DNA of 64,000 nucleotides from Sphagnum magellanicum (lineage: Eukaryota > Streptophyta > Sphagnopsida > Sphagnales > Sphagnaceae): assembly GCA_021904315.1 (NCBI GenBank), contig CM038922.1, positions 7,291,347 through 7,355,346 on the forward strand, given 5' to 3'. The notes beneath the pieces were generated by a model. The model ran no database searches. It was not told the DNA's origin and worked only from the letters and a program-made list of their open reading frames with translations. The position numbers and the translations under genes are program-made. Shown one piece after another: positions 14,758-64,000 of the stretch. How positions within the stretch are numbered: position 1 is the stretch's first letter; each line of letters starts with the position of its first letter.

Positions 14758-14759
14758 TA

Positions 14760-17310: not shown

Positions 17311-17316
17311 TTGTGA

Positions 17317-24084: not shown

Positions 24085-24230
24085 CATGTGTTTATTTTTG
24101 TGGCTTGTAATTCCATAGCCTTTTACTTCATTCTAATTATGGTATATTTCATCTTTAACTCATCATACTCCTACAATTTGTGCTTGAAGTAATATGGTTA
24201 CAATATTTTCATCTTCTCCATAATTATCTA

Positions 24231-24383: not shown

Positions 24384-24386
24384 CTA

Positions 24387-35440: not shown

Positions 35441-35444
35441 TGCC

Positions 35445-37927: not shown

Positions 37928-38822
37928 TGACATGTCCCCAAACTCCTTAAGGAACCCAAATGTGTGCCCCAAAGTGAAATAACGAAAAAAGAAAGGAATC
38001 AAGGCACGTTCCTTAGCTCGTAACACTTCGGGAGTAGAAGGGCTTGTTGGAGCTTTGAGATGGGATTAGGGCAAATTCATAAGTAAGAGTTCAAAATGAA
38101 ATCAACTTGCACAACCAAAGAAAGAAGGTGGTTAGTGCAAGTTGAATGTAAGTGGTGCAAAGAACTTAGTAGGGACAACCTCAAACACAAGTTTTACACG
38201 GCTCCAACTTGTGGGAAGAGGCACCACTCCCTCCCTTTAGTATACTTTGTAACTCTCCACATGGGCTACATCCAAATGGCATTTTTCCCCGGAATTGGGA
38301 CTCTTGTTGTCCCGAAAACTTTGGATGTTCATATCTTCCTCAAATCAAACCTTTTTGGAACATGCAAGGGCAATATTTTATAGCCCTCAAAAAGATCTTT
38401 CCAAAGGCGTATTTCACACCCCAATCAAAGATCATTTAGCCCCTATTCAAAGGGGATTTATGGTTGAAAGTCGAATTTTCAATTTGATTCCCGACCTTTT
38501 TTTTATATCATAATTCATGCATTTTAAATCTAAATGAACAATATGAGGACACTTTAGGCATCTACATTTTAAAATCTTTCCAATGGTATCTTTGGGGGCC
38601 CAATTTGGTACTTGTTTTCCTTTTCAACCAAGGCTTTGAACATTTGGGACTCTTGCACAAATGCAACTCCCAAAGTGGGAGTGCATTTAAAAGTCATTAG
38701 GCTCCATCTTTTGTAGTTTCCCCCATTTGTGAAAATGTGTTTCACACCCGAACACACTCTCTTGACCTCATGGGCCTTTGCACTCTACACTTAGTTGTGA
38801 ACCTAATGTTAAGCTTGTGACA
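37928..38822 (-). repeat. Putative LTR (3' side), 895 bp
   Basis: Shares ordered blocks with 41500-42394: AACACTT.GGGGTAGAA, GAGCT(C/T)(C/T)GAGATGGG, the CTTATAGTATTCTTTGT-like block, CCAAATG.CATTTT..CCC, AACTCCCAAAGTGGGAG and the terminal GTGACA. Same orientation as its partner. Confidence 0.55.
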
Positions 38823-41499
38823 TTTTCCGTTTGGAGTTGTGAGCTAAGAATTATGGCCAAAAAAATGATTGAAAATCAAAAGTCGTAATTTGACTATTGG
38901 CCATTGAAACCCAAGAAACAAAAATCAAATGATTTCCAATTGGAATGTGCAACACAACATTTGAAATGTATTGTTGAAAACTACAAGTTGGTGTGATTGT
39001 ATGTTCAATAAAAAACCTAATTTGAAAGAGTCATGAAACTTCAAAGTTTTGAAACATTACATTTCCCAATTTTGGGAGTTCAATTTGGGACTTTTGAAAA
39101 TTTTGGCCATTTGTATACACCTCATCGACAATCATAAACAAAACCCCATAATGAAAAAACAAGGAAATCACATTACATTAAAAAATCATCACCAAACATA
39201 ATGAAAAGAAGGATCAATGAGAATTTGTTTGCTAAGATCCCTAGTTTGCCAATGAATGTTAAAGTTCTTCCAAGTGGCCATATAGGCCTTCACAATGGAA
39301 GTCTAAGCAGAATGGAAAATCTTGTTACTAAAGTATTCATCATTAAAATGTAAGCAGTAGTATTTAGCCCATAAAAAATAAAGGATAAAACTACAAAAGT
39401 GATTTAGTAATTATTTAATGTAAATGTGAAACCACCAACATGCAACCTATGAATATGAGGATCATCTTCACTCCTAAAAACAATATTTCCTAACAAGATG
39501 AAATACCATGAAATATTAAAATCTTAGGAGCTTCCCATTTTAGTCCATACTTTAAAATAAATGTCCCAATCAACCATAGTTTTGGAGCAAGTCATGAGGA
39601 CGTGGAGTTTGAAAGGTTATTATAGACTTTGCAACTAGAAAAAACTCCCATGCATTCCAACCAACAACCAACTAGTAGTTATTGATTAAAGGTGAACCAA
39701 ATGAAGGTTGATACCTTGTGAGGTCTAAAATTATGTTAAAGTCTAGCAAAACTTTCTTGTTGGGAAATATCCTTCAACTCAAGTTGCTAAATGAACATCA
39801 TGAAGACAAAGGTAATGTGATTGTGACTTACATTAAAAAGGTAGCCCCTCTTTGACAATGTATCCAAATATGGGGCATCCCCAATGTGAGACATGGTTTT
39901 CCAATGCCATTCACCATGATTGATGAAGCCAAGATCAAAAAGCCACACAAGGCCTTTGATTGTAGAGCAATGTTAATTTTATATACTTTGAAATGAGTTT
40001 CATGATTATCTTGAATAAGCACCTTAACATGCATCAATCCTTTTGATTGAAGTTGAACAATGTGTGGGCTACTTCGGATCAACCTACCAAAAGCCAATTT
40101 ATTAAAGTCAAGAACAAAAATGGAATTAAAATGAACTTCAAAATTTTAATAAATCCATGAAAGGCTAGAGTTTTCTTCAATTCTTAAGTAAACCCACTCA
40201 CCTAATTGCATCATGTTAGTAGTAATTCAAGATCCCAAACTAGAAGTTGAAAAACTATGGAGTTTATGGGTATCTTTTAATGTGTAGTGTTGGCAAATTT
40301 AATAACATTAAGTTTGGTTGTCCCAAAGGTGTCACATTTTTGTGTAACCTACAATAGCCATGGCCTTTTTTGTAGTTGTAACACCAATACCAAATGGTAA
40401 ATTGTTTTATTAATAATAAAGGGGTTACCAAAAAATGATTATCACATTACTTCTTCCATGTTCTGAGGCTTAAATTTATCTAAGCTAACCTTTACATTTT
40501 TCTAAGCACCCAAGATGTCATTCGAAAAAAGAAAGGCAAATTTGCAAAACTTCATACCAACAAAAATTGAGTTTATATCCATTAGCATCATTGAGTCTGT
40601 GTGCCCAAAGGATTGGGCATGTTCTAATCTATGCATAGACTTTTCACTATGAACAAGGCCCAAAACTAGCAATTTAACAAGGAATGCCTCAAATTGTCCC
40701 TTAAGGTCAATTATACCTTGCCTTCCATTTCCAACAAGTTGGGTTTAAAAGTTCCACTTTGCTTTTGTTATTTTCCTATCAACATTTCTTCCCCAAATAA
40801 AATTGTTATACCTTTAAGTTGATCATTCATTTTTGGGGTTGGGTTCCAACAAGCTTTTAATTATCGCATTGAAGCCAGGAACACATGATTAAAAACGAGA
40901 ACTTTGCTAACAAATGAACATTTATTACTATCCCATGTAATTAGTTGGGCCTTAAGAAAGACCATTAAGCTTGTCGAAATTGACTATAAACAAGAAATGA
41001 ACACCTATTAGCACACCTAACTACTTAACACGTTCCCCTTGTAGAATCCATTTTATCCCAACATCCAAGCGAGTGCATTTGCACTAATAAAAACCACCTC
41101 CACCATTTTCTATTAATGTTTATCTTGGAGTATTTTAAACAAAAGTCTTTTAAAAATTCTTTTAAAATCTTTAAATTTTCTTCATACTATTATGTTAAGG
41201 TTTGTATTAAAATTTTGTTAAACATATGTCATTTTCAAATCATTTCAAGTCATTTTTATACTTGAAAACACTAGTTATAATGCACATTTTTTTATTCGTG
41301 ATATTGATTTGAAATTGATTCACGTGTTTCCATGATATATTATGAATTTTTTAATATAAATAAATCCAAAAATTTCAACACCAACTTAAATTGCCACTTA
41401 AAAACATGAAAAACTAAGCATTGGTTATGTTTGTTGTGCCTCATGTTAGTGTGAATGCACCTAGGCTTTCCAATCCTTTGGTTATCTTGCTACCCAAAT

Positions 41500-42394
41500 T
41501 GACACTCCCAAGCTCCTTGATAGATTCAAATGTGAGTTTAAAATGACAATAGTGGAAGGATAAAGAATTGAAACACGCTCCCTGGTTTGTAACACTTTTG
41601 GGGTAGAAAGGTGTGCTAGAGCTCCGAGATGGGGACTAAGACGAGTGACAAGCAATTCAATTATTCATACAGACCTACACAAACCAAACAATAAGTTGAT
41701 TAGTGCGTAATCAAAGCATTTTTGGTGCATAAACGAACCACGGGCAAACACAGAGTCACAAGACTCATCATGGCCTAGACTTAGGGGAAGCCATCACCTT
41801 CCCCTTATAGTATTCTTTGTGCCTAGCCACGGGGCCAACACCCAAATGTCATTTTGTCCCAGGACTCCCAAGTTGGAGTCCCGAAATTCCCTAAATTGGG
41901 ACTCCCGCAACTTTGGGGGCCCATAACTTTGTGTGTAGACCTTCGATTGAGGTGAGGTTCAAAGAAAAGTTGTAGCCCTTGTCGAGAGCTTTTCAACAGT
42001 ATGTGGCATTCCAATTGCACATAAGGAAATCAAGGCGATTCTTGACTTTTAGTGATCAGGAGTCAAAACCTTTTTTTTGGCCATAACTTATGTTTTAAGT
42101 GCCTAAATGTGTCATGCAAGACCATTTAGACATCTATGTTCCAAAAGCTTTCCAAATATATAAGGAAATTTTTAATCCAATGAGTTTTGACCCTTGTAAT
42201 CGCCCTCTAAAGATTTGGAAGTCCATCAGGACTCCAACTCCCAAAGTGGGAGCTCACTTGGGAGGGTGGGGGTTCATTCCTTCACATTTTCCTACATTCT
42301 CGGGAGCATGAAATGTGACTCCCAAGCTTCACTTTTGGCCTGCACCTTTGCCAACCCTTGCCTTGGTCACAAACCCAAGGCTAGGGTCGTGACA
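41500..42394 (-). repeat. Putative LTR (5' side), 895 bp
   Basis: Partner of 37928-38822, in the same orientation and of exactly the same length when bounded by TGACA at both ends. It is richer in GC than its surroundings and contains AACTCCCAAAGTGGGAG. On the minus strand its first bases are TGTCACGACCC, a start word seen in many plant Gypsy LTRs. Confidence 0.55.
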
Positions 42395-43415
42395 TAAATG
42401 GCAACAAACTTACCTCAATTATTTTTTCTCCAAAAGTAAGGCGAGAGTTATCCAGCTAGCATGAACGAACACCCATTAATGCATCAATTGGCAATTATGT
42501 CCACTAAATTATGGACCCTACGAATATTGCACTTACCACATCACTTGAATATTCTTACTTATTTACCCACCTTCTCTCCTACCTACCTACCCAACACCTA
42601 CATAACATCAATATCAAGGGATGAAAATAATGCAAATGTAGGTATTGCATTCAATTAGTTGGCATTAAATTAGACATATTCAAGCTCCCCATGCAAATAT
42701 TGCACTTGTGGACTCTTCCAACATCAATACCCCACCTTCAACCTCCACTTTCCACCATTTATTACATATTGTACACAATGTAATTAAATTTAATGCCTTG
42801 GTTTGAAAATTATTTTATAACCTAAAATGGATCAAAGAAGGATTTAGGGTTAGGTAGATGTGCCAAACATTTATGACTTGTGCAAAACATTATTTTTTAT
42901 ATTAATTAAATTTTAGTTTAGGTTAATTTTAATTTGGAAGAATCGTAAACATAGACATTAAAGAAGGGAAACTCATTTCTTCTCTTTTGAAAAGGAGTGG
43001 AGACATCGTTCAAGTTGGAAAGACATAAATTAGAAGGTAAAAGACAGATATTTTCCTTCATTCATTTAAATTTTTTATTCATAATTAGCTCATCCAAAAT
43101 TATTTTGTATAGTTATCAAGGTTACATGTAAAGTTTTGTAGTTATGGTTTAGGCTCTTTTGAAAGGAATATATGTTTAAGGTTTAATCTATCACCATATA
43201 ATTGTTTAGGGTTTTTTTTTTTTTTTTTTTTTTTTTTTTGCATGGATTTATTTGGAGTTATGGTTTGATTTAGGGTGGGAATGCTTTGCAAGGGGAATGC
43301 CATCACCTTATACCATCAAATTAAAGGTACTCCCCCCCTCGTCATTTGTTTCATTCATGGGTGGTTTTGATTTAATCACAATTAATTAGTTTCCTATATT
43401 AAATCAACATGAATA
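42395..43415. other. AT-rich stretch with a 28-T run
   Basis: No gene recognised. A homopolymer of 28 T lies at 43212-43239, bordered by GTTTAGGG-like text. It could be a poly(A) trace of a retroposed transcript on the minus strand, or simple sequence slippage. Confidence 0.4.
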
Positions 43416-43540
43416 CACTACAACAAAAGGTGTCCATGTACGTTAAATGATTTCACTGGATTTTGAGTGAATTCACTGGTCTAGTGAACAAGGTCTAGTG
43501 AACAAGGACTAATGAATTGCACCTACATTTTGCAGTAGTG
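43416..43540. mobile_element. CACTA-type MITE B family, second member, 125 bp, 3-bp TSD
   Basis: Starts CACTACAACAAAAGGTGTCC and ends ACATTTTGCAGTAGTG, flanked by ATA on both sides (43413-43415, 43541-43543). It matches 24231-24383 along its length with a ~25-base internal shortening. Different TSDs prove independent insertions of one family. Confidence 0.85.
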
Positions 43541-43659
43541 ATATAACCTACATTTTTATTATTATTCGAGAAGACTATATTAAGTTAGCAAATGTTTGAT
43601 TTTAATTCAAGAAATTTACATGCAATTATTGGTCTTGGATACAAATGTTATTTGCATGG

Positions 43660-44075
43660 GTTCCATGTACAATGTAGGTTTTAAGCATGTGGGTATTGCA
43701 TGATCAAGTATTAGGGGTAGTGTGGGTTTTAGGGTTTCATGTGGATATTACAAGAATGGCATGTCCAATGTGAATTTTAAGTTGGCATGCAAGTATTGTT
43801 AGGTTAAACCTCTCAAGTCCAACATGTGTTTTAGTTTGGTATGCATGTATTGCAAGGTTAAGTCCTAGGTCCAATGTACATTCAAGGTTCATATATGAAT
43901 ATTGTAAGGTTGGGTCCCATGTTTGGTATGCATGTGGGTGTTAGGTTGGCATGCAAATATTACAAGGGTTGGATTTGCAATTCTAATGTTTTTATTAGTT
44001 GGGCATGCAAGTATTGCCAACCTACATTCCATGCATAGTGTATTGATTAGTTTTGTATGTAAGTATTGTAAGATT
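43660..44075. repeat. Degenerate tandem repeat around GGCATGCAAGTATTGCAAGGTT
   Basis: About seven irregular units with variants of GGCATGCAAGTATTG, then AAGGTT, then CCAATGTG.GTTTTAGT. Spacing is mostly 55-65 bases. Related words (AGTATTG...CCCAATGTCTA.TGTGGGTT) recur at 46890-47265, so the repeat is a family in this region. No coding content. Confidence 0.65.
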
Positions 44076-44639
44076 TAGTATATTATCATGTTGTGTAGTT
44101 ACTACTCCCACAAAGGGGTATTGACTAATTATGTATTCCACTTATAATCATGGTTTAATGAAAAAAGGTTATTGTACGTGCATGTTTTACAAGTTTATAA
44201 ACATGGGCTAAATTCCCAAATCACAATCAATTCAAGTCCAAAGCCCAACAAAATCCCCTTTTTCAAATGTGGATTTGGTGTGAACTCCTGGGGTGACACA
44301 TGGAAGGACAAACAAAATGTCGATCAAGATTGTGTATATAACACATGCACATGTGTCTGAGTTTTTGAAAGTTCAGTAAGGTGATGTGGAAACTTTGGTG
44401 GAATCGAACACACACAAAAACTTACCCCCACAAAAGGATATCAAAACCCCATCAATAAATAACCACCTAGGCCATATTTGGTATAATGCGATGTTCCATG
44501 ATTTTGTTTTTTCTTTTCAAATGTCCTTCACAAACACATATGATCTTTACCATAGGTGTGTTTTGTAGGTATTTATATGCTTATGGTCTTGATGATCATT
44601 GCAATGACCCAAACCGTGTAAGATCAATCAAATAAGGAT

Positions 44640-46480
44640 GGTTGGCTACCTTTTTAATCAAGTTGTTGTACACATGACTTGATGTGGTGGAGTTATGTTT
44701 TTATCATCAAACACACACTTGAAGGAATGGTGAACCAACACATGGCCAACAAAATCTCGAATCATTTATTTGCATGTCATAGTGTGTTCCCCACAATTCA
44801 CAATTTTTGAAAGATCACATTTGGACTCAATTGAATCAAGGGCACACCATTACATTTGTGACAAACACACAAAAATTTGGTGGGAAGATGCAAATGTCAA
44901 AAAAACCATGACAAGGGATGACTTCATTTGATAACAAGACATCACATATTAATTTGGATCATAAACATAAGAGAAGGAATTGGCAATTGCACAAAATCCC
45001 AACCATTTTAATTCAATCTTGGGCTTTGCATCATTCAAAACTTGTATTTTATCTCCAAGAAGTTGAAAAAAATAATGGGATTGAAGTCCCATTCACCCTA
45101 AACATCCAAACACCAATGCAATGTCAATTCATGTTTGCATATGGGCATAATGGAACAATTTGCATGGATGCCACATTTGGCACAAATTATGTGAAATATC
45201 ATTTGTTTACCTTAATGGGCTTTGATGCCCATCACATCAAAATGCATCTAGCATGGATCATTACAAGTTGACAAATTGTGGATGATTTGATTGAAGGGTT
45301 CAAACCTTTGAAAGCAAAGATGTTGTCAATCATGCCTATTTGGAAACCAAATTGTTTCATTATCAATGATGCCGCTCAAGAGTTGCAAGCATTATAATAC
45401 ATATGAACCTTACTTTACCTTTTTCTTTTCAATTATGCTTAATGAAAGTCAAAAGATTTCTAAGGTCATTTCATTCCTATGAAGCTTACAATGTACTTAC
45501 ATATATAGCTAATGTTAAAAGTTGATATAATTTCTATGTGCATGCTTAGGATTGTTTGGGCCATGGGAAACATCCCTATCTTCCTTTGTGTGTGGCATAT
45601 ATTAAAGGCATGGCATTTACATGCAATGGAAAAGATCAAAGATGTTGAGTTCTGATGGACAATCCTTCATGATGCATGATATGATGTCCATCAAACCCAA
45701 GGAAAACATTGAGACTTTCAAAAAACAAGGGAGAATGAAAGCCTTGAAAAGTTTTGAGCAACATAGTCTTGGTGATTTTTGGATATTCTTGACTTTTGAA
45801 CCTATCATTGCCAATTTCATACGTGCTCATTTTCAATTTTGGTCTTTCAAAACATGTTTGTTTAATCATAGTTTCATAATTTTACATCCCTTTAAATGGG
45901 TATGATCATATTCTATCGACTAAAATTTTGATTTAATATTGCATTATGTGTTGCACTTTAGAGTTGTGGATGATTAGTCTTCAACATATGCCACATTCCA
46001 ACCAAGATACACAAGTGAGCATTGTGTTTTATCATGGTGCTTTAAACCATTAGCTTTCACTTTAAAACAAAAAGTTTTATAAGGCATCAAATCAATTGGT
46101 TGGTTTGGAGATTAACAACAATAGTTGCACAACATTACATGCACACATCCAAAATTGAAGAGGGGATTCATAAAAAACAAGGTCATGGAATGTATTATGA
46201 GATAGAGTGTGGATAAGGCAACATTGATCTCGTGACTCACCCATGTATCCCAACCATCCTTTGTGGTGTAAATGAACTAATGTTCTTTCCAAAGGAGCAA
46301 TTGAACTTTTTAGTTCATCAAGAGCCCCAATCTCATCCATAGGAAGCACACTTTCATCCATGGTTTCAATCAAACCAATGTGGACCATGCCACCTCAATC
46401 ATGAAAGTTGTGGCATAAGAAATCTGAAACATTCACCTCACAAAGGTGAATGAATCTTGCATTTGAGGATGTTGAATCTT
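44640..46480 (+). mobile_element. MULE (Mutator-like) transposon remnant, copy 2
   Basis: The best-preserved block (44918-45271) carries the MULE catalytic region: PFTLNIQTPMQCQFMF, then YGHNGTICMDATFGTN with the catalytic Asp in MDATFG, then FTLMGFD. After an interruption the CVWHILKAWHLHAMEK-type block follows (45585-45640). The region 45955-46190 then matches the stretch before the SWIM finger in copy 1 (2815-3030), with the shared words CCACATTCCAA and TGATTGG/CAATTGG-TTGG. Frame changes separate the blocks, so no transposase is made. Ends and terminal repeats were not identified. Copies 1 and 2 complement each other in which domains remain visible. Confidence 0.75.
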
Positions 46481-47475
46481 ATAAATTATGGTTTAGGGTA
46501 TTCAATTCAAAGGTTGAAGGATTGACATGAAATAATGCTTGTAAACACAAATGTTCGCAAGAGAAGATCTCATTAATAAAAATCAATCTTTTCATCCAAC
46601 GAGCATCATATTTATATTTAAATTGTTTGATTGTTCATATGTACTTAAGGTTCACAACATTGTTGTGTACCAAATAATAAAAATATTATTTTGTACTTGA
46701 CAATCCAATGTCTAGAATGTGTTTTATGTTAACATCAACCCCGCAATGTAATACAAAAGTCTAACTAATGGAGATACACATTATGGGCATTATGGTTCAC
46801 ATAAAATCACTGAGAAACACACAAACAATACCCAATAATTTTAAACATTGCAAACATTGGGAAGATGGTTTTCAATGAAGCTTTGGAAAACTAGATGCAA
46901 GTATTGCCCATTGACCTATGAGTTTGGGAAGTTTGGATATGGATATTTTAGTTATGTAATGCAAATTTGAAAGGATTATGGAGGTATTGTGGTTAATTAA
47001 CATCTAGATAAAATAATAATAATGCAAGTGTTGTAATTCAACCAAATTGCCAATGCATGTTAAGAAGACTATATGTAGGTATAATAGTTAGCACAAGGTG
47101 GGTTAAGTCTCATTATGTAGGTATTGTAATTGGAACATTTTTCTAATCTATATCAAGAAGAGTATATGAAAGTATTGCTATTAGACCCAATGTCTAGTGT
47201 GGGTTAAAATGACCATTATATGTAGGCATTGATGTTGGACCCAATGTCTAATGTGGGTTCATTAATTTATTCTATTCATTAATCACTATGTGCCTCCGGG
47301 CACTATGGTAAGATGTGAAAACACCCGATCCCATTCCAACCTTGAAATGTGAAATTGTCTTACGCCATATGTACTGATTTATAAATTTTGGGAGACATGG
47401 TATAAGCCCGGTCAACATATTTAATCTAATTTAAAGTTTCAATGTGCATAGTAAATATATATTTTTTGCCATAAA
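46481..47475. repeat. Degenerate repeats around GTAGGTATTG / CCCAATGTCTA
   Basis: The words TGTAGGTATTG, GAAAGTATTG and GACCCAATGTCTAGTGTGGGTT recur from 46890 to 47265 at ~55-70-base spacing. They resemble the array at 43660-44075. The rest (46481-46880) shows nothing recognised. Confidence 0.5.
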
Positions 47476-47594
47476 ATTTTACTGATTGGGTGGACCCTTT
47501 TTGCGGGTGCCAAAGCAAGTGAAGGCTCTAATAAATAAAATCAATACAGTGACTTTGACGAAGCTTATAAAGGGCACGAAGTGGGGGGTAGTAT

Positions 47595-47617
47595 GGGGGG
47601 GGGGGGGGGGGGGGGGG
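47595..47617. repeat. Run of 23 G
   Basis: Uninterrupted G homopolymer at 47595-47617. Able to form G-quadruplex structure, and a spot where sequence length is likely unreliable. Its surroundings (47480-48150) are less AT-rich than the neighbourhood. Confidence 0.9.
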
Positions 47618-48075
47618 AGGATGTGGCTTCGTAAAATCAAATGCAAAGCGGGAGAATGTAGCAAGACTAACAAAGAAAAAAAACAAGCATGCGCTGATTG
47701 ATGACGCTAAAAAAAATTTTATTGACCATGCATGATGATGAACTGGGCTATGAAATATCTGCAAATATCTTCAAAGAAAGCAACTTTGCAGTTGTTTTTC
47801 AGGCAAGCCAAAGGACTTGCTTAGTTGGCTTTGCGTTTTGCTTGTTAAATAAAATTACACGAAGCAATGATAAACAAACAATTGCCCGATGGTTCTTGCT
47901 TTGGGGGCTAAATCCTAAAGTATTGCTATGCAAGATTTTAGCTGAGAGATGAATTACCATAGAAAAATATGGTAGTAAAATACGATACTTATAAAAAAAG
48001 GTTATACTTAGGGCTAGGTAAATAATTGTTGTGCAAAAAAGGAATATTTTGCAATTGAATAAACTTTATTATGCT

Positions 48076-48148
48076 CGTGGGATAGAGTAATTGGTAACTC
48101 GTCATGTTCATAATCTGAATGTTGTAGGTTCAAATCCTATTCCCGCCA
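48076..48148 (+). tRNA. trnfM: Initiator-type tRNA-Met (CAU), organelle-like
   Basis: A full 73-base cloverleaf can be drawn. Acceptor arms are CGTGGGA (48076-48082) and TCCCGCC (48141-48147), with discriminator A. The D arm is GAGT/ACTC with loop AATTGGTA. The anticodon arm is TCATG/TCTGA with loop TTCATAA and anticodon CAT (48109-48111). The variable loop has five bases. The T arm is GTAGG/CCTAT with loop TTCAAAT. A mismatch at 1:72 (C-C) and A11:U24 in the D stem mark bacterial-type initiator tRNAs, as used in plant mitochondria and plastids. One anticodon-stem pair is broken (T-C), suggesting decay. No CCA is encoded. Most likely a nuclear copy of organelle DNA, not an active gene. Confidence 0.75.
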
Positions 48149-51100
48149 AATGTTATAAGTGTTTTTGGTAAATAGTGGAATCTAGAAAGCAGTGCATCTA
48201 TTACTTGCTTGTTTTTGTGCACTTTTTTTTTTCTCAAATAATAAATCGATCGGGTATAAAAGATATGAAAATGTTTATTTATATTATGAATGGTGTAAAT
48301 TAAATGATAAAGTAAATGTTTATGCAAATATAAGACACATATAATGGATTTTTGTTACATTGATGATCTTGAATAATCATTTATGGGACAATATGGAAGT
48401 TGATTGGTTAAGTTTCTTCAATGGCCTGATTTTTTGCATGCTTTTCCATTTGGTTATATTAACGTTAGTTTAGTATTTTTGGGGATCAATAATTAGCGCG
48501 CAAATTGAAAATGAATAATTCTGTAACTAATACAATTGCTTTTATGCTAATTATAGCTAGATCTATGAAATTGCCCATAACCAAACTATGTGTAGTTTGT
48601 TTGTTAAGGTGACTATACAAAAGTATTGCAATAATGCTTTACATATGCTTTGCATGGCCTTGCATGGAGATATTAAATTTCATGGGGGTCCTCTAGTTTA
48701 AGAACAAACTTATGTGGTTGGTGTTATTTTCAACGTGGCCCTATATACAAATATTGCATTTTAGGGGGGTTAGTCCATTTAAGTGAACTTATGCGACATT
48801 TGGTATTTTAAGGTTCATCATCAAATCAAAATTGCAACACAATTGATACATATGCAAAACAACTATGTTTTTTATGGCTTCAAACAACAATCTACAATCC
48901 ACCTCACAAAAATCTCCAATCACATTCACCATTGCTTCATCATCAATTTTATAATAATAATTTTATAATAAAGTATTCTTGCATTCACAAAACCATTTGT
49001 ACAAGTTGAAACAAATAAATAAATAAATTGCAATGTCATGGTGAAATTTTGAAAAGAACAAAGAAACACAAATGAAAACAATAAAACAAAATAATGATGT
49101 TGTTTGTTCAATAATAGCAACATTGCAATGAGAATGTAACACCAAAAAGGAAGCACTTAAAAGTGTAGTGGAAGTGATTACATTGAAAAAGTTGAAAGCA
49201 CTAACGTTTTAATGAAAATAGTGATGTCACTTGTTCAAAAATAACAATGTTACAATGAGATGCACAACATAGCAACAACACACAATAAAACATTGCAATA
49301 ACACAATTCAAAATGCAAAAATATTCTATAACTTCAAAAGCCAACAATGATCAAAGTTGGTGGAGAATGCTTTGAAAAGATGAACATAAAAATGTAATTG
49401 AGAACAAAGATAGTGAGATTTGACAATAGAAAGCAATTTTTAAGAAGAACAATTCGATGAATAGAAAAATATGCTTGAAAATGTGTAAAGTGTCACTTCA
49501 AGAAGTTGAATGAAGGTTTTGTTCTTAATGACAACACTTAATTTTTGAGTAAATTGTCATGAACAAAAATGTTTTTTGGTGAATTATTAACCTACCTACT
49601 AACAAAAAGACTAAAAAGTCCGAATGGCGATAAAAAAAAGTATCTAGGTCTACAAGTAGTTTAGGTAGAAGTAGGTTACTTTATAGGTATGTTTAGGTCC
49701 ATTATGTTAACTTTTCATCATTATCATTGAACCCTTAAGTTTGAATAGACCCTTAGAGTGGCTTCTAGATTTTTTAGATAATTTGAATCATTTATTATTA
49801 TACTACTACAGCATGTGCCATTGAGCACATGTTCTAATGCAATTTTTAGAAAGTACCTAGTACATACATTCGTTTGCAATCCAATTTTCTTTTAAATGAT
49901 TATTTTATTAAAATTCCAATTACAATAAATATTTCAAATTGTATAACTCCTACATCATAGGTCTAAAATTTACAAAACTATCTCATGCACCCACACTGGT
50001 TGTGGGTTATACAATAGTATGAGAATGCACCCTCGAAACTTAATTTGGATTCTAAATAAATTACTCAAAATTCAATAACTCTTGTGTTGCAACTCTAAAT
50101 AATACCTTGTTACACCCCTACTCAATGAGAGTTTTCCAACAATACTAAGAATAGAGCTTGGAACCCATCCCTACTCACCCTAGGCTTTCCAACAATACCT
50201 ACTAGGGTTCCTATGACCTAAGGCAATAACAACCTAGTGGGGACTTGATGCCATACCACATATATAGGTGCCTTATTTCAGTTTCATACTAAGCTTAGCA
50301 AAATTTTAAGTTTGGACCCAATAACAAGACCAAGCTGGTATAGAAAAATACTCAACACCAAGACCATGCTCATGTGTTCAAAAGTGGAAACTATACCTAC
50401 ACTGGTTAAATTATTGCATATGTCCATTCAAATTCTCTAAATAATTGGAAATTTAAAAAATTGAGGGGGGATGGATCCAAAAGGGAGGCTAAGGAATTTG
50501 TTCAATTTCAGTGTGAAGATTCAAGAGTGGTGATAGAGTTTCAAAGGTATTGCATTAAGAAAAGAGTTAAATGATTATTTTTGCTTTAGCACATAAATCT
50601 TTCACCGCATGCATGAGTAGAGGCTGAAGACATTTGGTTACATCTTTGTTGTTCTAAACTTGAGTTGTTCAAGTTTAGAACAACAATGATTTGGATACCT
50701 TATAAGATTCAAATTCCATATTAAAAATATCAAGTTTTCTTTTCTGGTCTAAGTTAAGTCATGGTAGGCTTATTGCCAACTACTTCCCTCCTTTTGACAC
50801 ATTCACATGGACCTGAGTAAGTGGCTGCTCAATGTTTAAAGCGTTGAGCCATTCCCACTTTTGTTTCACCAATATATTTCTAAAATGATTTAAGTAGAAC
50901 TTGGTGAAAGTTTGTGATATTTTAAAGTTTAATAAGTATGCAAACTTCAATAATATTGCTTTGTACTTTCAACAATCTATTTATTTGTTGTATGTTTTTA
51001 TATAGTAGTCATGGGCATTAAATGTTCATATTGATACCACAAGTAATTCTTAATTCATATGCCATGAGTTCAAAGGTTGGATCTTTTACCTTCCCTGTAT

Positions 51101-53696: not shown

Positions 53697-54020
53697 TTAA
53701 GGGCCTACCTATGTTATGGGATACTTAGGAGAGTTAGGGGATTGCACAAAGCCTACCTCAGGGGTAGCTAAGGATTTCCTAAGGGGACATTTAGGATAGG
53801 GCTTTATCTAACGGGCTATTTAGTATAGGGACTATCAAAACTTACATAAGGAGGTACATAAGGACTACCTAAAGGGTTACCTAGGACTATGTAAGGGACA
53901 TCTAAGGGCCTATCTAGGTTATGGGATACTTAAGGATTACTTAGGAAGCTAGTTGAAGCTTACCTAGGTTATGGGATACCTAAGGACTACATAAGGAGCT
54001 ATATAAAACTTGCCTAGCCT
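53697..54020. repeat. Degenerate minisatellite built on CCTAAGGACTACCTAAGG
   Basis: Irregular short units with the words TTATGGGATAC, CTAAGGACTAC, TAAGG and ACCTAGG run for ~325 bases. TTATGGGATACTTAGG appears three times in variant form (53714, 53928, 53968). Units of ~18-25 bases, strongly diverged. No coding content. Confidence 0.75.
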
Positions 54021-57000
54021 AAACCCTTGAACTTCAATTGGGGTTCAAGAATACCCCATAGTGTTAAGGAAAAGGAGAGCCTCCACAATAGTCAAGCTTC
54101 CATTGTCGTAAACATTGGGGTTCTAAATTTTGCCATCATCAACAATATCAAGCTCCTTAGTGTAACAAGTTCGAACTTTTCCTAGGTTTGTAGGTTTTGG
54201 CCTAAGTTCAAGAAAATCAAAGGTTTAAACCCAATATAAACTTGCAACAAGTCTTTGTTTTCTTTTTAAATTTTTGATTTTTTTCATCCTCAATTAGTTT
54301 GCAAATATTAGCTTATAATTAGACAAAAATGTTTCTTACAAAAAGGACCCAAACAGTTTTGTCTCGATGTGAACATGTCGTGACTCACATCATGATGTGA
54401 CCAATAATAATAATAAAAACAAAAAATCAAATTTTTGTTTTGGGGATTTCTTTGGAAATGCATCATGTCCTCCAATGGTGTTGGTTTGAAATGATTTTTG
54501 GGGCATTGTAATCATCTTTGGAAGGATCATAACTTGGTGGAGGTGAACCTACATAAATGTAAAGACCTACCTTGTTTTTTTATTTTTGGGTACCTAAATT
54601 TCCAAGGGATAAAATGTCACACCATTAATGTGAAATGCCATGTTGCTAATATTTTTCAATTTGTATTAAATGTTTTGTTGTAAGTTTTCAATTAAAGCTT
54701 ACAAAAATGGGATTATGTGGTGAATGAAATTGTAAATCCCATTTGTGTCATTTTTGAAATTTAATTGTGGGTTGTATCTAAAGGTGATGATTGTTCACAA
54801 CCTCGTTGTTTGTTTGTGGCAGATTGATGATTTGTATCTATCACATTTGTTGTGTTTACAATGAGCCCCATGTTAGTTTGGCCTTGTGAAATCTAATCAG
54901 TGGATGTAAACTTTGCCTTGTAGATTTAGGGATGGATTATAGCCATCCATGTGCGACATCCCTTTTTAGTTAAGGTTGTGGAACATGTTTTATGGTTTTA
55001 GGGCACCACAAAGGTGTCAAGGGTTTCATAACAAGGGGATACTTGAGTGGCACTAGTAGGTACACAAAACATAATGTGTGGTTTAGACCATTAGTGCCAT
55101 TGGCATCATTAAAAGGGGAATCTTTTGATTTAGATTTTGACATAATTTAATTCATGTCATCACACCATTGTTATGGGGCATGGAAGAAGTTTATGGAATT
55201 GCCAAAGGGCCACATTGGTATTCTGGAATGGTGGGCACCATTAAACTTGATGTTTTCATCTAGGAATTTGATAATTGATTTGATATGCAATAGATGCATA
55301 ATTCACATTTATCCACACCTTTCATGGCATGGCAAGGATTGTTTAAACATTTTAAGAAGTTGTCCATTTCTGGTATGAAATTTTGGAAAAGGAATTTAAG
55401 CAAAGAATGTGGGATGTTACTTTACTACAAATTAATCAAGCTATTTTGGCATATGTGTTCCTTCTAACTAAAAGAATTGAGTTGAACATGGTGGAAGAAA
55501 AAATGGTGACATTTTGGTTTCAAGGACAAAAAACACACCCTTGATCATTTCAACCACAAACCAACATGGACAATTGAATAAAAATGTTTTACAAAAAATT
55601 GAGGAGCCTTTGAAAGGAAATCAAATGCCATTGGCATCATTCTTGGGACAATAGCAATGAAATGCAAATTGTTAAACATGGACGAAATCACTTGAAAAGG
55701 GATTGTCCATAGAAAGGTAAGGGACAAGCTTAGGTCCAATGTACAACTACAATGTGAAGTACATTGTGGCAAGTCGGTAATGACACAACATGTTGTTATG
55801 ATGTGCATATCGAACTACAACCAAATTTGAATTGTGGCAATGAAAGTAGTTGGGGGCGTGGAAGGCCAATACCCAAGAAGGAAAAAATAATCAAAAGCAA
55901 AATACAAGGAGTAATTTGAATCCAAGTCAAGGATATGGAGGTCTTGTAAACCAAGGCATGGTAGCCAGGATTGCCTAATTAAAACAACCGCTTGTTACCA
56001 TGGTTATTACCCATTTCAACTCCAAGGCCTAATGATTCAATACAAAGCCTTAATTCATCTATTATGGCAAATTTGGCAAGAATAGGCTTCATGTGTGGAG
56101 TTGCATTACTAGAGCCAATGCATCCTACAATGGTGTTTATTTGATCAAATATTCAAGCCCAAAAACCTTGAAAAACATATGTAGTGTTGAATCTACAAAA
56201 GAGAAAGGTTAATCACCAAATTTGCCTTCCATAATCATTCACATTGGCAAAAGTTATGCCAACCTCTTCCATGTCGCCAATTTGATCGAATGTGATTAGA
56301 TCGGAACAAGTTGTGCCAATGGGAGGGACACCAAGTCTACTTTCAGTATCCATGGCAACAACCAACACTTTATTTGGGTCAACGACAATGGTTTTCCCAA
56401 CTTCTTCTTTTTGTAACAATGGTTGCAACCCCAAGATTTGGACCCATTGTTGTGTTAGAATTAGTGACCACATTTTGGGAATGTAGGGACATCCCAAAAT
56501 CATATGCAAGATTGGTAGATGTTGTGTCACAAGATGAACTTGTGGACACAAGAGTTGTGAGGATAACTTTTGTTACATCATTGTAAGTGGCAACTATAAG
56601 GCTACAAGAATTGTCTCTTAGGTTGATAATTGATCATGTGATGATAACACTAGGAGTGGTATTATTGGATAATGAACACAAGGTTTTATGTTTGATTATT
56701 TCATTGGCTAATAAATATTGGTCAAAACAAGTCTTGTTGGACTTTGGAGTTCAACCATTAATGTTAGGGCAAATAGCCATGGTAGGTTTGGTTTCACATA
56801 AGTAGATTCAAAGCCTTGTGCATTCTAGATACAAATTTCCTTAGGTGGATCAAAGAAGGTTCATGGGATTACATGTTAAGCACTTTATGTGAGATTGCAA
56901 TTAGATCATCCATTAATGGTTCCACCATGAAAATCAAGGTCATTGTGATAGGTGCCATGTCATATGATGTGCTAATAGGTGGAACAATTTTATAACCCAT

Positions 57001-57449
57001 GGGTTTCAAATTGGATTTCTAGATGGAAATTGCATCTTATAAACCAAAATCATAATCAAGAAATGGTAGGAATGTACACCTTCTTGAACATTTCATTTGG
57101 AGGAAACCTTTGAACAATAATAACATGATGCCAAGTTTGGTTGCATTTATTGGGATTGTGAATTTTGGTGGAGAGCTCCTAGAAGACAATGTTTCCTCAT
57201 AAGATAATTCCTTGATGTGGGAGGAGGAACAAGGAACGGATGTAATTAAAACCAATTTTGGCACTAATCAAGAAGCACATTAATGGGGCATTAATGCACA
57301 TTTGCAACATGTAGTAAAATGTTATGTGCAACAATCTTGGCAAGGGGCCTTTGCACCCATATTAATGGAAGCCAATTCTATTTTTGCTTTAACACCATCT
57401 CATTTGTTACCATTGGATACTATTTTAATTCTTTGGCAATGTCCCAAAG

Positions 57450-58860
57450 AAGGCATTTGTGTTTTGGAATTGTTTGAAGGAATGAACATGAGCTTAGTTG
57501 CAATGTTACAAGTGGGAATTTCAATGCACAAATGGGTGCAAATGAATTCAAACAAGCCAAAATTGATGTAAAAATGTCAATTTTTTTACAATTCTTGTTA
57601 CATTGTTTATGTGGTGCCACTTTAATGGCATGTGAATCATGGAAAGTTGTGCTTTAAAAATAATATGGATAAATTGAGAAATCAAAAAATGGATCAAAAA
57701 ATCTTCCAATATCAAATTTTGGTTTGAACAAAGGATGTTCAACAACTTCATTCAATAACATTACTTTCACATAGGGCCCTTTAGTTTTCATAGTAAAATT
57801 TCTTTGATCCTCAATTTTTTTGAGTAATAGGGTACTGTTAAACACATAAAAAGTAATCAAAATTTCATATTTTTTCAACTTTGTGTTTGTCAAAATTTAA
57901 GGATTAAAAAAGTTCATGAATCCTTTACGGAAATAAATGTGATGCAATGATGTATATGTTGTTTTAAAAGAGGCTTTAGCTTATAATATAAGAAATTAAA
58001 TTTGAAAATGTTAACATGTTTTGGTATGATTTGAAATTGTGACAATTTTTCAAGATGAAACACAAAATTTTGCAAAATCTATACATTTTCAAAAATTCAT
58101 ATTTATTCAAAATTAGTTGTAAAAAAACATATGACATATTGGGGCAAATATAAATTTAAAAAATAAAAAGTTTCATAATATTTAATTTCAAAACTCCGTT
58201 TTATGAAAACATGTTTTTTTAGCAAAAGACCCCAAAAAGGACAATAGTCCTAAATGCAAAGTAAACACATTGATTCGTTAAATGTCATTTGGACCCAAAT
58301 ACCTTTATGTGGAGAATGATGAGGTGGTTCAATGTGTTTTAATATGCCATGTGGCTTACCTTACTTAATAATATCTTGACTTGCTTTCATTATCAACAAT
58401 TTAAGGGAACTTAAAAGCTTGTAAATTGATATTTTGTTGATAGGTGCACCAATCTTGTTTTAGCAAGGACCAATTCATTTGGTCATAATTGGCTAGCCAT
58501 GCCAAGAACATTTGTTGGTAGGCCATGGTAATGGATTACAAGATAATCAATCTTGCATATTTTGGAAAATGTTATGAATGTTTTGTTATTTATAATTGCA
58601 CCAAACACCTTCTTTATCTTACATTTTGGAGAATGTTCCAATGATGGGTGATCCTTGAACCAAGGTATTGGCAAGTGTTCAACAAATATCTATGTAGATT
58701 GGATAAGTTGTGTTATTCAAGGTGGCAAGAGTAAGCTCAAAAGTTCATTGATTATGTCTACGGTGGACCATTATTTCATTAGATCACTTCTCAAGTGAGA
58801 ATATGATGGGGTGCATAGACCATCACTACTCATTGTTGACAATAGTTTGATAGGGGAAGT
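57450..58860 (+). pseudogene. Fossil cytosine-C5 DNA methyltransferase-like domain within the Gypsy element
   Basis: Three hallmark motifs of C5 methyltransferases occur in the right order. The SAM-binding motif I reads VLELFEGM...AMLQVGI (57464-57520). The catalytic motif IV is PCQ (58497-58505), followed by G-NGLQD as in the family's G..GL.D..S extension. Motif VI is ENVP (58629-58640), 44 codons after PCQ, a usual spacing. Downstream text to ~58800 resembles the part leading to motif VIII. Capture of C5 methyltransferases by retrotransposons is known from algae and other eukaryotes. Decayed and not functional as it stands. Confidence 0.75.
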
Positions 58861-60384
58861 TGTCACAACCAATTAGGTTTGGGGTGCCGGCAAGGTAAAA
58901 TAAACAATTTAGATTCCTTGTCACACACAAAAAGTAGCCATAAATAAGTTTTAATGTATTGAAAGTAGAAATGTTTTTTATTTAATGATCAACATGAGGA
59001 TAATATTTAATTTAATCACAATGATGTTGATTAATCACATATTTAATATGCGTTGAAGTAGATTTTTAAAAAATAATTGTATTTTTTTCCTACTTTTTAA
59101 GTTGTCCAAACTTGTACAAGTAGGTGAAAGTAAATGAATTATTGAATAATCTCCATTTTCAACATGATGTAGCTTTTAAATGTACTTGTCAATTATCACA
59201 TTTTAAATATTATAATAGAATACATTAAACTTCTAATGAAAAAACATGTTTAAGTTCAATTTGACTAGTCATTTTAAAACATACTTGTTATCAACTTTTA
59301 TTGTACCAAAGATTTTCAAATTTTTTCACCTCACTATAAAATCAAAGAAAATCACCATGCTTTTATCATGTTATTTCAAATTATTTTCAATCTACTTTTT
59401 TCTAATTGTGTCAAAAATTGGACCATTTTTTAATTGCCTTTAAGACCTATTTTTTCTATATATTTTACCATGTTTTTACCCTTTGATGACAAATCACCAT
59501 CGACATTAGTCAATAAAGTGGGGTGGTCGTGAATAACATTCCCTTGACATAGTTTAATTTTTCAATATTTCATGATTTTCAAAACAATGGGCCATGACTT
59601 GTTTGGGGATTCCCATCAACAAAATTTGGTTGAACCCAATGCCAATGAGTGCAAATGGGCTATGACATTTCTTATAGAAACTATCATGCCACACTTGAAT
59701 GAGGCATTTTGTTAACAAGTTTTAGGTTAAACAATGGACCTCAATTGTTTGACTAGGGTTATTAGTTTGGGTTTGGCTAAACAATGTTAACATTGCATGA
59801 CTATTCACATGGTGTGTCTAATACATCCTCTTTGCTAATTGAAATGGTTAAGGCACAAATTGGGGGCAAACACACAATAACTACAAGGTGGAAATACCCA
59901 TGGCAAATGTGGGATGAGGAGTGTTAAGGACAAGTCACTTGGAAGAAGTGGCCAAGGTTGTTGAAAGGGTGGGTGATTTTTTCAAAACAAAGGAAAATAT
60001 TCAATTCGCCATGGAAAAATTATGTTAGTATTTACCAAAATGAAAGATCCGGTTGGAGATTTTGTTAATCATTGAGCAAATGATGCATCTACTACTAACA
60101 AGTCAAGGTTGTGGTCACAATCCCAACATTGGATTTATAGTTATTGGAAATGAAAGAAGTAGGATCCACCAATTCCTTTGGGCCTACAAGGATGGACTTT
60201 TAATTTAAAGGACTTGGGGTCACTTAAGGGCCATGGAATTTAAACTAAATTGGCTAATGATACACCCACATTTCCAAGGCCTTGGAAGTATAATGATAAT
60301 GAAAGGTCTTTGATTCAATCAAGGACCCAAGATTGTGGGAGGCTAGATTGGTATAACTATTAATATGAGGATATGTTTCAACTA

Positions 60385-62266
60385 TTGTGATGTTTGTGAA
60401 GAAGGATGTGTTTGCCAATTGGATCAAAAGGTAGATGTGTGAGGATTATTGATCTATGAACTAGGAAACCAAGTCTGATAGATATGCCATGCCAACATTA
60501 GAGAATATCTTTGATACCATTTGGGCATGTTAAGGTGTTGAGCACCTAGGATTTAAGCTTAGGGTACCACTAACCACTTATAAAAAAAGGTCAATAAATA
60601 AAATACTACATTTTGGGGAATTAATTAGTTGGGAAAATATTGACTTTAAGGTTCATTCAAGGTTGTGGTACACAAAAGGAATGTTTCACCCTAAAATCAC
60701 TCTCAAGATATTACTTTGAATGACCATTACATTTATGAAAAAAATTATTTGGTAGATTTTTTTTCATTAGATACTCACATACTTCTTAATTAAAATGGTG
60801 GTATTTTTTTTATTTGGATAATTAAACCATGTCCTTAAGTGTCATGAAAGATGATTTAATAATTGTGTTTCAATATGTAATTTTATCAAAATGGACTCAA
60901 TAACACTAATAATATTTGTTCAAATTGTTCCATATTTAAACCAAAAATAGAATAAAATATGTTCTATATGATGGCATAAATTTTTTGTATGATAAATCAC
61001 TAAATTTGTGGAAGTGATGCTAGTGTCTTGTAATTTTTTCATAAAAAAACTGTGTTAATAATGACAATCAAATTAATTTTGTTAATTACAAAATTAAATT
61101 CCAAAAGTTTGGAAAGAAGTATAGGAGACATGGATGCAAAAGATAGGAAATTATTTGATGTTTTTAATAAGGTTTTGGCACTCCAAATGATAGTAGGTCA
61201 TTTTGGGAATATTTAAGAAATCTTCCATTCTTCTTTGGTTTATAATTAAACAAGACATTCAAAATTTGTTCAATTGATTTAAATCATTCATTATAACATT
61301 TATTGGTTGAAAGCCTAAACATACATATCCCCCTTTCATTGTTTAGCATTTCAAACATTCATTTTGTTGAGTTCTTACTTTAGAACTTGGGACATAGGAC
61401 AAAAGGGTGTCATGGTTCTTGTTACACAATACTCCAACCGTGAATGCACCCAAGTTATTGATGGTGGCTCTTGCCATTGAGTTGGAAAATGCCCCCATGA
61501 ATTTCCAAAAAATAATGGACAAGATTTTATTAAAGTTAGATTATGTTCAATGTTATATAGATGACACCATCATCTTTAGTGTTATGATGTAGGAGCATGA
61601 CAAACATATGCAAGGGGTGTTTTAATGATTGAGAACCCATGGAATGAAGTTGCATCCACTGAAGAGCATTTTTTCTATGACCATATTGAGTATCTAGGCC
61701 ATATGATCTATATTGGAAGGCCAAGGGTTCAACAAACAAAAGTGGATGTTATCACTTGCATTCCACATTCCATAGATGTGAGTAAAGTTCGAGCTTTCAT
61801 GGGATTAACAAACCACTACTAGAAGTTTGTCAAGGGGTTTAGTGTCATTTCCAAGCCTCTCACCAAGTTAACAAAGGTGGAGGAAACATAGTAATGGGAG
61901 GATGAACAAAAACATGTTTTTCAATAACTTAAAGCCCGATTGACCTTAGCACTAATCTTGAAGCGATTGCTTACATGAAGGTTGTTCCAATTGCTTATGC
62001 ATGTATATTGGAACATGTTGGGTCTTGGAATTGTGATCACCCATGTGGATGATGAGGGAAGAAAGTTTGTATTGGAATATGTTGGTCGTTTCGACAACAA
62101 TCTTGAATTTAAGTATAGCTCCTATGAAAAGGAATGCATTATTGCAATATGGGTGGTAGCTCATTTTAGGTGTTATTTGTATGGGAACCCATTCACTCTT
62201 ATCATAAATCATCAACCATTGAAATGGTTTATGGAATCCAACAAACTATCTAGCAAGTTTACATGA
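60385..62266 (+). pseudogene. Fossil reverse transcriptase and RNase H of Gypsy fossil 2
   Basis: RT fingers/palm text at 60385-60530 (FVKKDVFANWIKR, SDRYAMPTLENIFD), the catalytic YIDD box at 61554-61565 preceded by NAPMNFQKIMDKIL, the connection block (EYLGHMIY, then VRAFMGLTNHY) at 61685-61820 and RNase H at 61980-62266. About 800 bases between 60670 and 61380 are poorly recognisable and may hold unrelated sequence. The fossil is part of the element at 55100-62270. Confidence 0.8.
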
Positions 62267-62329
62267 TGGGCATCCATATTCATTAGTAGAACATTTGTTT
62301 TTTATAACTATCGTTTGCAACTAATTTTT

Positions 62330-62460
62330 AGTTGCATGTGACATCCAAATTGCATGTGACATATTATACATATGATGTACATATAATATGTTTGTACTTT
62401 TCATCCATTCATATCCATACAACAAGTTGCATATGCAACTACATGTGCAACTAAATGAAA
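62330..62460. repeat. Palindromic AT-rich cluster
   Basis: CAACTAATTTTTAGTTG is a small palindrome. ACATATTATA and TATAATATGT form a 10-bp inverted pair around a 13-base centre (62355-62391). TTGCATATGCAA is a third palindrome. Dense small palindromes at the right edge of the Gypsy fossil. Confidence 0.55.
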
Positions 62461-62612
62461 ATATTTTTTTATGACATGTGTTCATTAATTTCAAGCCAAT
62501 CATTTAATGACACATGAAATCTAAAGCCTATTTTGGCATTTATTATTTAAATTAATTGAGAAAATTTAGATTGTTCAATATAAGGTTTATAAGATGTTGA
62601 CACATGGCACCT

Positions 62613-62690
62613 AAATAAGTAAGTACGTAAATAAATAGGCCTAGGTAGGCGGGTAGGTAGGCCAAGGTAGGTAGGTAAATAGATGGTTGG
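62613..62690. repeat. Simple repeat (TAGG/TAAG)n
   Basis: Runs of TAAGTAAGTA and then GGTAGGCGGGTAGGTAGG over ~75 bases. A tetranucleotide microsatellite of the form (GTAG)n with GTAA variants. Confidence 0.8.
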
Positions 62691-63087
62691 GCCTAAGTGT
62701 TAAATGTTAATTTGATGACATTATTTTATTTTATAATTATGCTCTTCAACATGTTATTTTCTACATATTCTAGATGTGTAATATTAATAACAAATTACAT
62801 AAATCGGAAAGTAAAAGTTGACATAAATGTATTTCAAAATCCATATATGCGATACTATTACATTTTTAATAATCTAAGAATAGAATTAAAACCATATGGA
62901 ATTGAAAATACAAAACAAAATACAAAATACAAAGAAAACCATTGTTCTTTTCTATCAAAATCTTCTTCTAATTTCTTTCACATGAGCTTCTCCTATCTTC
63001 GAAACTCCTCCCATTAGTCCTTCCTGATTTCTTGCCATGAACATGAATTCAAATTATTAACCAGTCTTACCAATTCAGCCCTATGTT
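62691..63087. other. AT-rich stretch, nothing recognised
   Basis: An open frame at 62697-63017 is hydrophobic and Asn/Tyr-rich by composition, with no family features. Not called as a gene. Confidence 0.3.
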
Positions 63088-63222
63088 GCCATTCTGTCCT
63101 ACAATGACATTTCCTTTTGTCCACTATGTCCAATGATGACAATATAATTCTATCCACTCTATCCAATGGTGATTGTGCAATTTTTTTCATTATGTCTAAT
63201 GGTGACAATACAATTTTTCCTT
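63088..63222. repeat. Minisatellite, four ~34-bp units
   Basis: Units built on TCCACT(A/C)TGTCCAATGATGACAAT followed by a T-rich tail repeat about four times. On the minus strand this reads as a short repeat containing SPLD. No gene structure supports translation. Confidence 0.7.
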
Positions 63223-64000
63223 TAATATTACCCCCCATATACTTTGAATTTCATCTTCGAAATCTTGTGATATGGAATGTATAGAATTATATTGACAAAA
63301 AATATAACAAAATTATTTTAATTGTTCTTAATGGGCTAAGAGTTATCCTTAAACCACTACTATAGTTTGTTGTGTTACAGTAATAATTCCTTTAGTTATG
63401 GATTAGTCTTCCATTACTATTGAAAATTGTTCATTATGTTGCACATCTTCAATGGTCTCTATATGACCACTATTGCCTTCTTTTAAAGGTGTGTGCCTTG
63501 CTACAATAGTTGTACCATAAACTATAAATTGAAATATAGTCTAAACTATTACATATTCAATCGAATATGTATATTCAAGTACCTATTGCTACAACTATTC
63601 CTACATTTATGTGGATACAAATGTTGTTTGTTCCACTAGTTGGAATTCTTCTTGTTCAATAAGAACATTTTCCATTGCAACTCCTCCTTTCATTTCTTCA
63701 AGCACTACTAAATGCACTTAAATGTTTTTCCACTTGTGCCTACTTGAAACTAGTCCATGTCTAATCCTAGAAAGCTATCTTTTGGATTTATAGAAATAAA
63801 TGCACAAATGAACTTTGGATAGGCTTTTTTTATGCCTTGAATTTTCTTTTGTGCCTTGCTTCATTTGCTATATGTTCATCACAACACTTATACATCCTTT
63901 TACATAATATTTTGTATTAAATTCCACCAGATATCAATGTCTAATGCACCCAATTCCATGGACTTCTATCTAGTCCTAATGATGGTATTATGCATTAATA
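63223..64000. other. AT-rich stretch to window end, nothing recognised
   Basis: No gene, RNA or terminal repeat seen in the last ~780 bases. Loose repeats of CTACAACTATT/ACTATTGTACC-like words occur near 63430-63600. Confidence 0.3.

Follow-up and report, generated by a model that had tools for sequence, protein, structure and literature searches.

A cytosine-C5 methyltransferase remnant ahead of a Ty3-like reverse transcriptase in Sphagnum magellanicum, probably left by a retrotransposon with its own methylase

Introduction

Did a land plant once host a retrotransposon that carried its own DNA methyltransferase? The question is raised by a stretch of 64,000 nucleotides of the peat moss Sphagnum magellanicum (GenBank assembly GCA_021904315.1, contig CM038922.1, positions 7,291,347 to 7,355,346, forward strand), hereafter the window, in which positions are counted from the first letter. 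A sequence-only reading had proposed that positions 57450 to 58860 hold part of a decayed Gypsy element, in which three hallmarks of a cytosine-C5 DNA methyltransferase (C5-MTase) lie between the retropepsin and the reverse transcriptase (RT). Here we demonstrate that the stretch comprising motifs IV to VI is a genuine C5-MTase remnant, situated on the same strand as, and ahead of, a Ty3-like RT and an RNase H. We conclude that the locus is very probably a dead Ty3/Gypsy copy, truncated or decayed at its 3' end, whose Pol carried a C5-MTase domain ahead of the RT and probably after the protease.

Precedents in algal and dinoflagellate retrotransposons, which the same reading had named, are indeed published. 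According to the accessible text of de Mendoza et al. 2018 (PMC5890265), a Dnmt3 resides in the Pol open reading frame (ORF) of KnitGypsy-Dnmt3, a long terminal repeat (LTR) Gypsy element of the charophyte alga Klebsormidium nitens, and DNA methyltransferases (DNMTs) are found in DIRS and LINE elements of the dinoflagellate Symbiodinium (SymbioDIRS-Dnmt3 and SymbioLINE-Dnmt). The same text reports that retrotransposon DNMTs perform de novo CG methylation, and proposes that the element's own cDNA is methylated. A 2025 article (PMC12344493) mentions, in its available portion, DNMT3 in streptophyte and dinoflagellate retrotransposons, LTR Copia and DIRS being named there. By contrast, land plants such as tracheophytes lack transposons that encode a DNA methylase, according to the accessible part of Morozov et al. 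2019 (PMC6338049).

Results

Motifs IV to VI belong to a C5-methyltransferase

The three motifs are present on the plus strand, with LELFEGM (motif I) at 57464-57484, PCQ (motif IV) at 58497-58505 and ENVP (motif VI) at 58629-58640, exactly where they had been placed. PCQ and ENVP share one frame, that of position 58497, and LELFEGM lies in another. The distance from PCQ to ENV is 44 codons, as had been counted; in 16 phage and plasmid methylases (L001-L016) it ranges from 39 to 46 codons, 11 of them having 43 or 44. A PCQ-x(30-55)-ENV pattern occurs once in the six frames of the window, and was encountered in a single one of 300 dinucleotide-shuffled windows.

Profile searches gave concordant answers. 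Submitted as a short piece, 58440-58700 gave 18.0 bits (E=0.0021) against the C5-MTase profile PF00145, under the Pfam cut-off of 22. Six further pieces were read in that frame: five matched Pfam at E-values from 0.0023 to 0.046, and one of 35 amino acids had no match. This Pfam signal shows only with shorter query pieces: scanned as 2-kb pieces, the region 57001-59002 returned no family in any of its six frames. The NCBIfam dcm profile TIGR00675 matched the motif IV-VI stretch with E=5.6e-4 and 19.7 bits, its whole-protein cut-off of 100.65 being far higher, and the three PHROGs families that matched (E=0.0024, 0.0045 and 0.16) are all DNA methyltransferases. The other two plus-strand frames of the same DNA had no match in NCBIfam or PHROGs.

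Direct comparisons pointed to the same enzymes. An 87-amino-acid piece compared by tblastn with 50,697 phage records matched 59 of them at E<=10 (best E=7e-4), and by name these are methylases or methyltransferases (45), hypothetical proteins (8) or unannotated (6), with no other function represented. In the plasmid collection, the motif IV-VI piece matched 11 records, ten cytosine methyltransferases and one CheA, the latter being the best match (E=0.4). A query shifted by one base, to the +1 frame, matched nothing in either the phage or the plasmid collection, and the motif IV-VI piece had no match among PDB sequences.

A hidden Markov model (HMM) built from 16 sequences scored the locus at 50.9 bits, but its members were all drawn from matches to pieces of the window, and it was not relied upon. 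Because sequences found in this way would favour the window, a second, control HMM was built from 10 methylases hand-picked from 60 listed of the 1732 records matching the SPR phage enzyme, none of the 10 being among the 59 phage records matched by the window. This control was run against all six frames of the entire window, cut into 2556 overlapping fragments no longer than 100 amino acids. The top locus was 58353-58652 on the plus strand, with 30.3 bits (12.4 for the adjoining fragment), whereas the maximum over 60 dinucleotide-shuffled windows averaged 4.7 and never exceeded 8.5 bits. Taken together, the profiles, the phage and plasmid matches, the control HMM and the empty frame-shifted query prove the motif IV-VI stretch to be a genuine C5-MTase remnant, as the sequence-only reading had claimed.

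Motif I lies ahead of motifs IV to VI

The second-ranking locus of the control HMM is the motif I stretch (8.9 bits for 57452-57751 and 8.7 for 57302-57601, both plus strand), followed by a locus with 7.2 bits. None of the 60 shuffled windows reached the motif I score, and in 40 more shuffles 8.7 bits were attained in 4 of 4320 strand bins of 1.2 kb. The stretch is also found in the expected order and on the expected strand relative to motifs IV to VI. In the phage collection, 57440-57571 found a single methylase, represented by two records of one phage (E=0.3); the match spans codons 2-31 of that gene, which carries a PF00145 annotation, and so falls at the N terminus, where motif I belongs. 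Against the plasmids it gave two matches at E=5, neither of them a C5-methylase.

We conclude that the motif I remnant is well supported by its place and score, and that it is weaker than motifs IV to VI. The expectation that PF00145 would recognize it too failed, as this stretch had no Pfam or NCBIfam match. An HMM restricted to motif I ranked it third in the window, with 8.1 bits, a score exceeded in 4 of 30 shuffled windows, and a motif-I-like regular expression is by itself frequent by chance (2 occurrences in the window, 1.4 on average per shuffled window). In DRM enzymes, motif I comes after motif VI. Since motif I precedes motifs IV and VI here, on one strand, the order is not the permuted one of DRM, provided that motif I is real.

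Could the motifs be mere coincidences in decayed, AT-rich DNA? The missing Pfam and NCBIfam matches of motif I taken alone, and the failure of the motif-I-only HMM to reach window-wide significance, would agree with this explanation. It is nevertheless scarcely credible for the locus as a whole, which scores 30.3 bits where shuffled windows peak at 8.5, and for which Pfam, NCBIfam, PHROGs, phage and plasmid matches converge whereas frame-shifted controls stay empty. For motifs IV to VI, a chance origin is ruled out by the shuffle and frame-shift controls.

The remnant precedes a Ty3-like reverse transcriptase and an RNase H

Downstream of the methyltransferase remnant, on the same strand, lie two parts of an RT and an RNase H (Table 1). 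Among PDB sequences, the RT core matches the Ty3 RT best (E=2.1e-5, residues 184-248). The preceding RT piece had no Pfam RT match, and at E<=10 the PDB offered it two matches only, with E=0.48 and 1.1; both are to Ty3, at RT residues 114-143, the part expected ahead of the core match. These Ty3-like RT and RNase H matches make the element Ty3/Gypsy-like, with the MTase ahead of the RT; the order along the single strand is motif I, motif IV, motif VI, RT and RNase H. Eight tested pieces had no second copy in the window beyond matches of E=0.56 and 0.62.

This arrangement bears on the possibility that the MTase came from an endogenized large DNA virus or from bacterial DNA and lies beside a Gypsy fossil by accident. 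Its nearest matches are phage and plasmid enzymes encoded by stand-alone genes, such as L003 and L006, which share the motif IV-VI sequence and the codon spacing, although only such collections were searched, and the available portion of PMC12344493 mentions giant-virus insertions in a moss. However, this remnant shares the strand of an RT and stands ahead of it, and the 26-46% identity of the phage and plasmid enzymes over the fragment is what is expected of a distant C5-MTase. Moreover, scans of plus-strand pieces taken from 54961-64000 revealed no other viral gene (on the minus strand, the scan covered 57001-59002 and 58480-58805). We consider this origin very improbable.

Table 1. Parts of the retrotransposon fossil and the stretches that interrupt it.
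Feature	Positions	Strand	Basis
Candidate retropepsin remnant, upstream of MTase	56728-57060	+	By eye only
C5-MTase motif I (S-adenosylmethionine-binding) remnant with LELFEGM, in open frame 57284-57571	57440-57571	+	Control HMM
AT-rich stretch A, a probable insertion separating motif I from motif IV (approximate bounds)	57600-58370		60-bp GC 0.15-0.37
C5-MTase remnant from motif IV (PCQ) to motif VI (ENVP)	58440-58700	+	Profiles, tblastn, HMM
Possible MTase continuation (motif VIII region), same frame as motifs IV-VI, unsupported	58692-58916	+	By eye
AT-rich stretch B (approximate bounds)	58915-59545		GC profile
Possible C-terminal MTase end (motif IX/X-like), unsupported	59548-59790	+	By eye
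N-terminal part of Ty3-like RT	60381-60570	+	PDB Ty3 matches
AT-rich stretch C, interrupts RT (approximate bounds)	60575-61390		Ty3 RT residues 114-143 before, 184-248 after
RT core with YIDD	61398-61680	+	RVT_1 PF00078, E=7.2e-10, frame of 61380
RNase H of LTR-type Pol	61979-62266	+	PF17917, E=1.6e-16; PF17919, E=1.9e-10

The copy is dead and bears a methylation footprint

The different frames of motif I and motifs IV to VI, together with a TAG immediately 5' of PCQ and many more stops, indicate that the copy is dead. Its base composition resembles that of DNA methylated for long. Between 54960 and 62300, CAG/CTG (CWG) occurs at 8 sites, with an observed/expected ratio of 0.06 compared to 0.67 for the whole window, the CpG ratio is 0.13 compared to 0.31, and CAA/TTG and CAT/ATG are over-represented. 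Such a pattern is expected where cytosines in CG and CHG contexts were methylated for a long time and then deaminated, CHG methylation being a hallmark of plants, which have CMT enzymes for it.

Similar blocks recur along the window. CAG/CTG is nearly absent (0-9 per kb) at 2001-5000, 9001-12000, 22001-27000, 37001-51000 and 54001-64000, compared to 41-56 per kb at 28001-34000. The CAG/CTG-poor blocks constitute a readable fossil record of decay by CHG methylation.

AT-rich stretches interrupt both the methyltransferase and the reverse transcriptase

Three AT-rich stretches (A, B and C), alike in length, break up the locus, and the simplest reading is that they are insertions. The TIR-like (terminal inverted repeat) candidates match at 8/10 to 10/12 letters. 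None is convincing in stretch A, where a 9-bp direct repeat (57606/58304) is no more than chance would give, being equalled in 280 of 500 shuffles. Around stretch B, a 5-bp repeat at 58843/59550 encloses a TG...CA candidate, again no better than chance, with the like in 95 of 500 shuffles; this stretch had no Pfam match in 58994-59500. A common transposon family for the three was considered and rejected, their mutual similarity being no higher than that of shuffled sequence.

These gaps raise the question of whether the MTase instead entered, or came to lie beside, an ordinary Gypsy element as a DNMT gene or pseudogene of the host, or as a gene that another transposon had captured, in which case the AT-rich stretches would be its introns. 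Stretch A, and perhaps B, does lie inside the MTase region, a donor-like GTAA site is present at 58895, and, with neither protease nor gag supported by a profile, only one flank of the MTase is firmly of Gypsy origin. However, the Ty3-like RT is split by a similar AT-rich stretch, so the gaps are not specific to the MTase, and the one inside it is poor evidence for a host gene with introns. Furthermore, none of the border repeats rises above chance, and the MTase and the RT share a strand and a CWG-depleted block. A host gene is therefore, in our judgement, an unlikely source, less remote than a viral or bacterial one.

Other features of the window

An unbroken frame of 1077 codons at 30295-33525 on the minus strand encodes a phosphoenolpyruvate carboxylase (PEPC; PF00311, two matched stretches). 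Its PDB matches number 12; PEP carboxylase 3 ranks second and a C4 enzyme third, both of which we take to be plant enzymes, but 1fiy, presumably that of E. coli, lies only about 22 bits behind the best match, so that these matches are weak evidence of a plant host. The CWG pattern and the abundance of decayed repeats also point to a land plant. Because plant bacterial-type PEPC genes carry many introns, this intron-free copy may be a retrocopy. Two large duplicated units occupy 8964-20254 on the plus strand, where 8964-11111 and 15159-17299 are 89.4% identical, and 12211-15165 and 17312-20254 are 90.6% identical; local direct repeats, with copies 70-84% identical, are present at 4272-4892 and 34743-35445. 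At 2984-3385 on the plus strand, a weak match to the SWIM zinc finger (PF04434, E=0.0093, below cut-off) recalls a domain that occurs in MULE transposases or FAR1-like proteins. A tRNA-Met gene is located at 48075-48149 on the plus strand (ARAGORN; Rfam tRNA).

Discussion

Our results identify a C5-MTase remnant upstream of Ty3-like RT and RNase H remnants on one strand, and a dead Ty3/Gypsy copy with the MTase in its Pol is by far the most probable origin. Several observations weigh against it. The candidate retropepsin was recognized by eye and had no Pfam protease match, and neither gag nor integrase was found by profile, the integrase giving no Pfam match either after the RNase H (62250-64000) or ahead of the RT (59700-60400). 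The proposal that the MTase lies between protease and RT consequently stands on its downstream side, and is left without profile support upstream. No LTR emerged from the repeat search, which yielded in 54000-64000 just one 31-nt pair of 77% identity and three short inverted pairs, nor did comparison of the whole window with itself reveal an LTR-like repeat for the fossil; the 3' part of the element is decayed or missing. AT-rich stretches interrupt the MTase, and beyond motif VI no database supports it: the possible motif VIII region had no in-frame Pfam match and no PDB match, the matches of longer pieces stopping at motif VI, and the possible C-terminal end recovered no MTase in Pfam, PDB or phage searches and was not among the top eight of a C-terminal sub-HMM. 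Since CWG is also lost in other blocks of the window, its depletion marks age and host methylation rather than the element's own enzyme.

Intact relatives were sought as well. Queries with the MTase and RNase H pieces recovered none from IMG/VR; the collections searched contain hardly any plant DNA, and the lack of an intact relative in them also counts against the proposed origin. A degenerate W-PCQ...ENVP pattern recovered 79 viral loci, none of which resembles the RT, RNase H or protease pieces (tblastn, E<=0.1, 105 loci compared). A scan of genome contigs returned a single locus, rejected as a chance match within an ORF of a bacterial contig.

We know of no host DNMT3 or DRM enzyme that is fused to an RT. 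These plant enzymes resemble the remnant in their C5-MTase catalytic motifs, but the motifs of DRM are permuted, whereas motif I here stands ahead of IV and VI; DNMT3 itself, according to the accessible part of PMC6453930, is kept in gymnosperms and undetected in angiosperms. Comparable to the fossil is KnitGypsy-Dnmt3, as far as the available text describes it, a Gypsy element with unrearranged C5-MTase motifs in its Pol ORF; in the window, the MTase pieces precede the RT and RNase H on one strand, in a copy whose decay has broken up any single ORF. KnitGypsy-Dnmt3 differs in that its domain, in a charophyte alga, retains key residues and is under purifying selection (PMC5890265), whereas the Sphagnum element is a single dead copy in an AT-rich genome. 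The Symbiodinium elements, in the same text, are likewise retrotransposons with captured cytosine methyltransferases, but they are of the DIRS and LINE types and represent independent captures, whereas the RT and RNase H studied here are Ty3/Gypsy-like. The combination of Gypsy and C5-MTase is thus already known from algae and dinoflagellates, and what is surprising is the land-plant host lineage. Among the open-licence papers listed by our literature searches, no title or abstract opening mentioned a Gypsy element with a C5-MTase from a land plant, which does not prove absence. Intact polyproteins with this combination of domains may lie unnoticed among publicly annotated gymnosperm proteins.

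How might such an enzyme have served the element? The MTase would be made as part of the Pol polyprotein, released by the protease and packed into the virus-like particle, where it would act on the fresh cDNA of the element, so that new copies would arrive already methylated. Such premethylated copies could pass as resident DNA, or settle into tolerated silent chromatin. We hold this mechanism of cDNA self-methylation, modelled on the published elements, to be rather doubtful; a single polyprotein, the protease, the packaging, the activity and the target are all steps that we infer. Cytosine methylation is the main weapon of plants against retrotransposons, and an element with its own MTase would therefore turn the usual arms race around.

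We advance tentatively, as a possibility to which we give somewhat less than even weight, that a Ty3/Gypsy lineage with its own de novo cytosine MTase, which methylated its own cDNA, existed and may persist in land plants, possibly since before their split from charophyte algae. The published claim that land plants have no DNA-methylase transposons would then be mistaken. A land-plant fossil of this kind would be at odds with what the accessible part of Morozov et al. 2019 (PMC6338049) states, and the capture, or the persistence, of such elements would lie outside the charophyte algae. With intact relatives, one could directly test whether self-methylation of cDNA benefits a retrotransposon.
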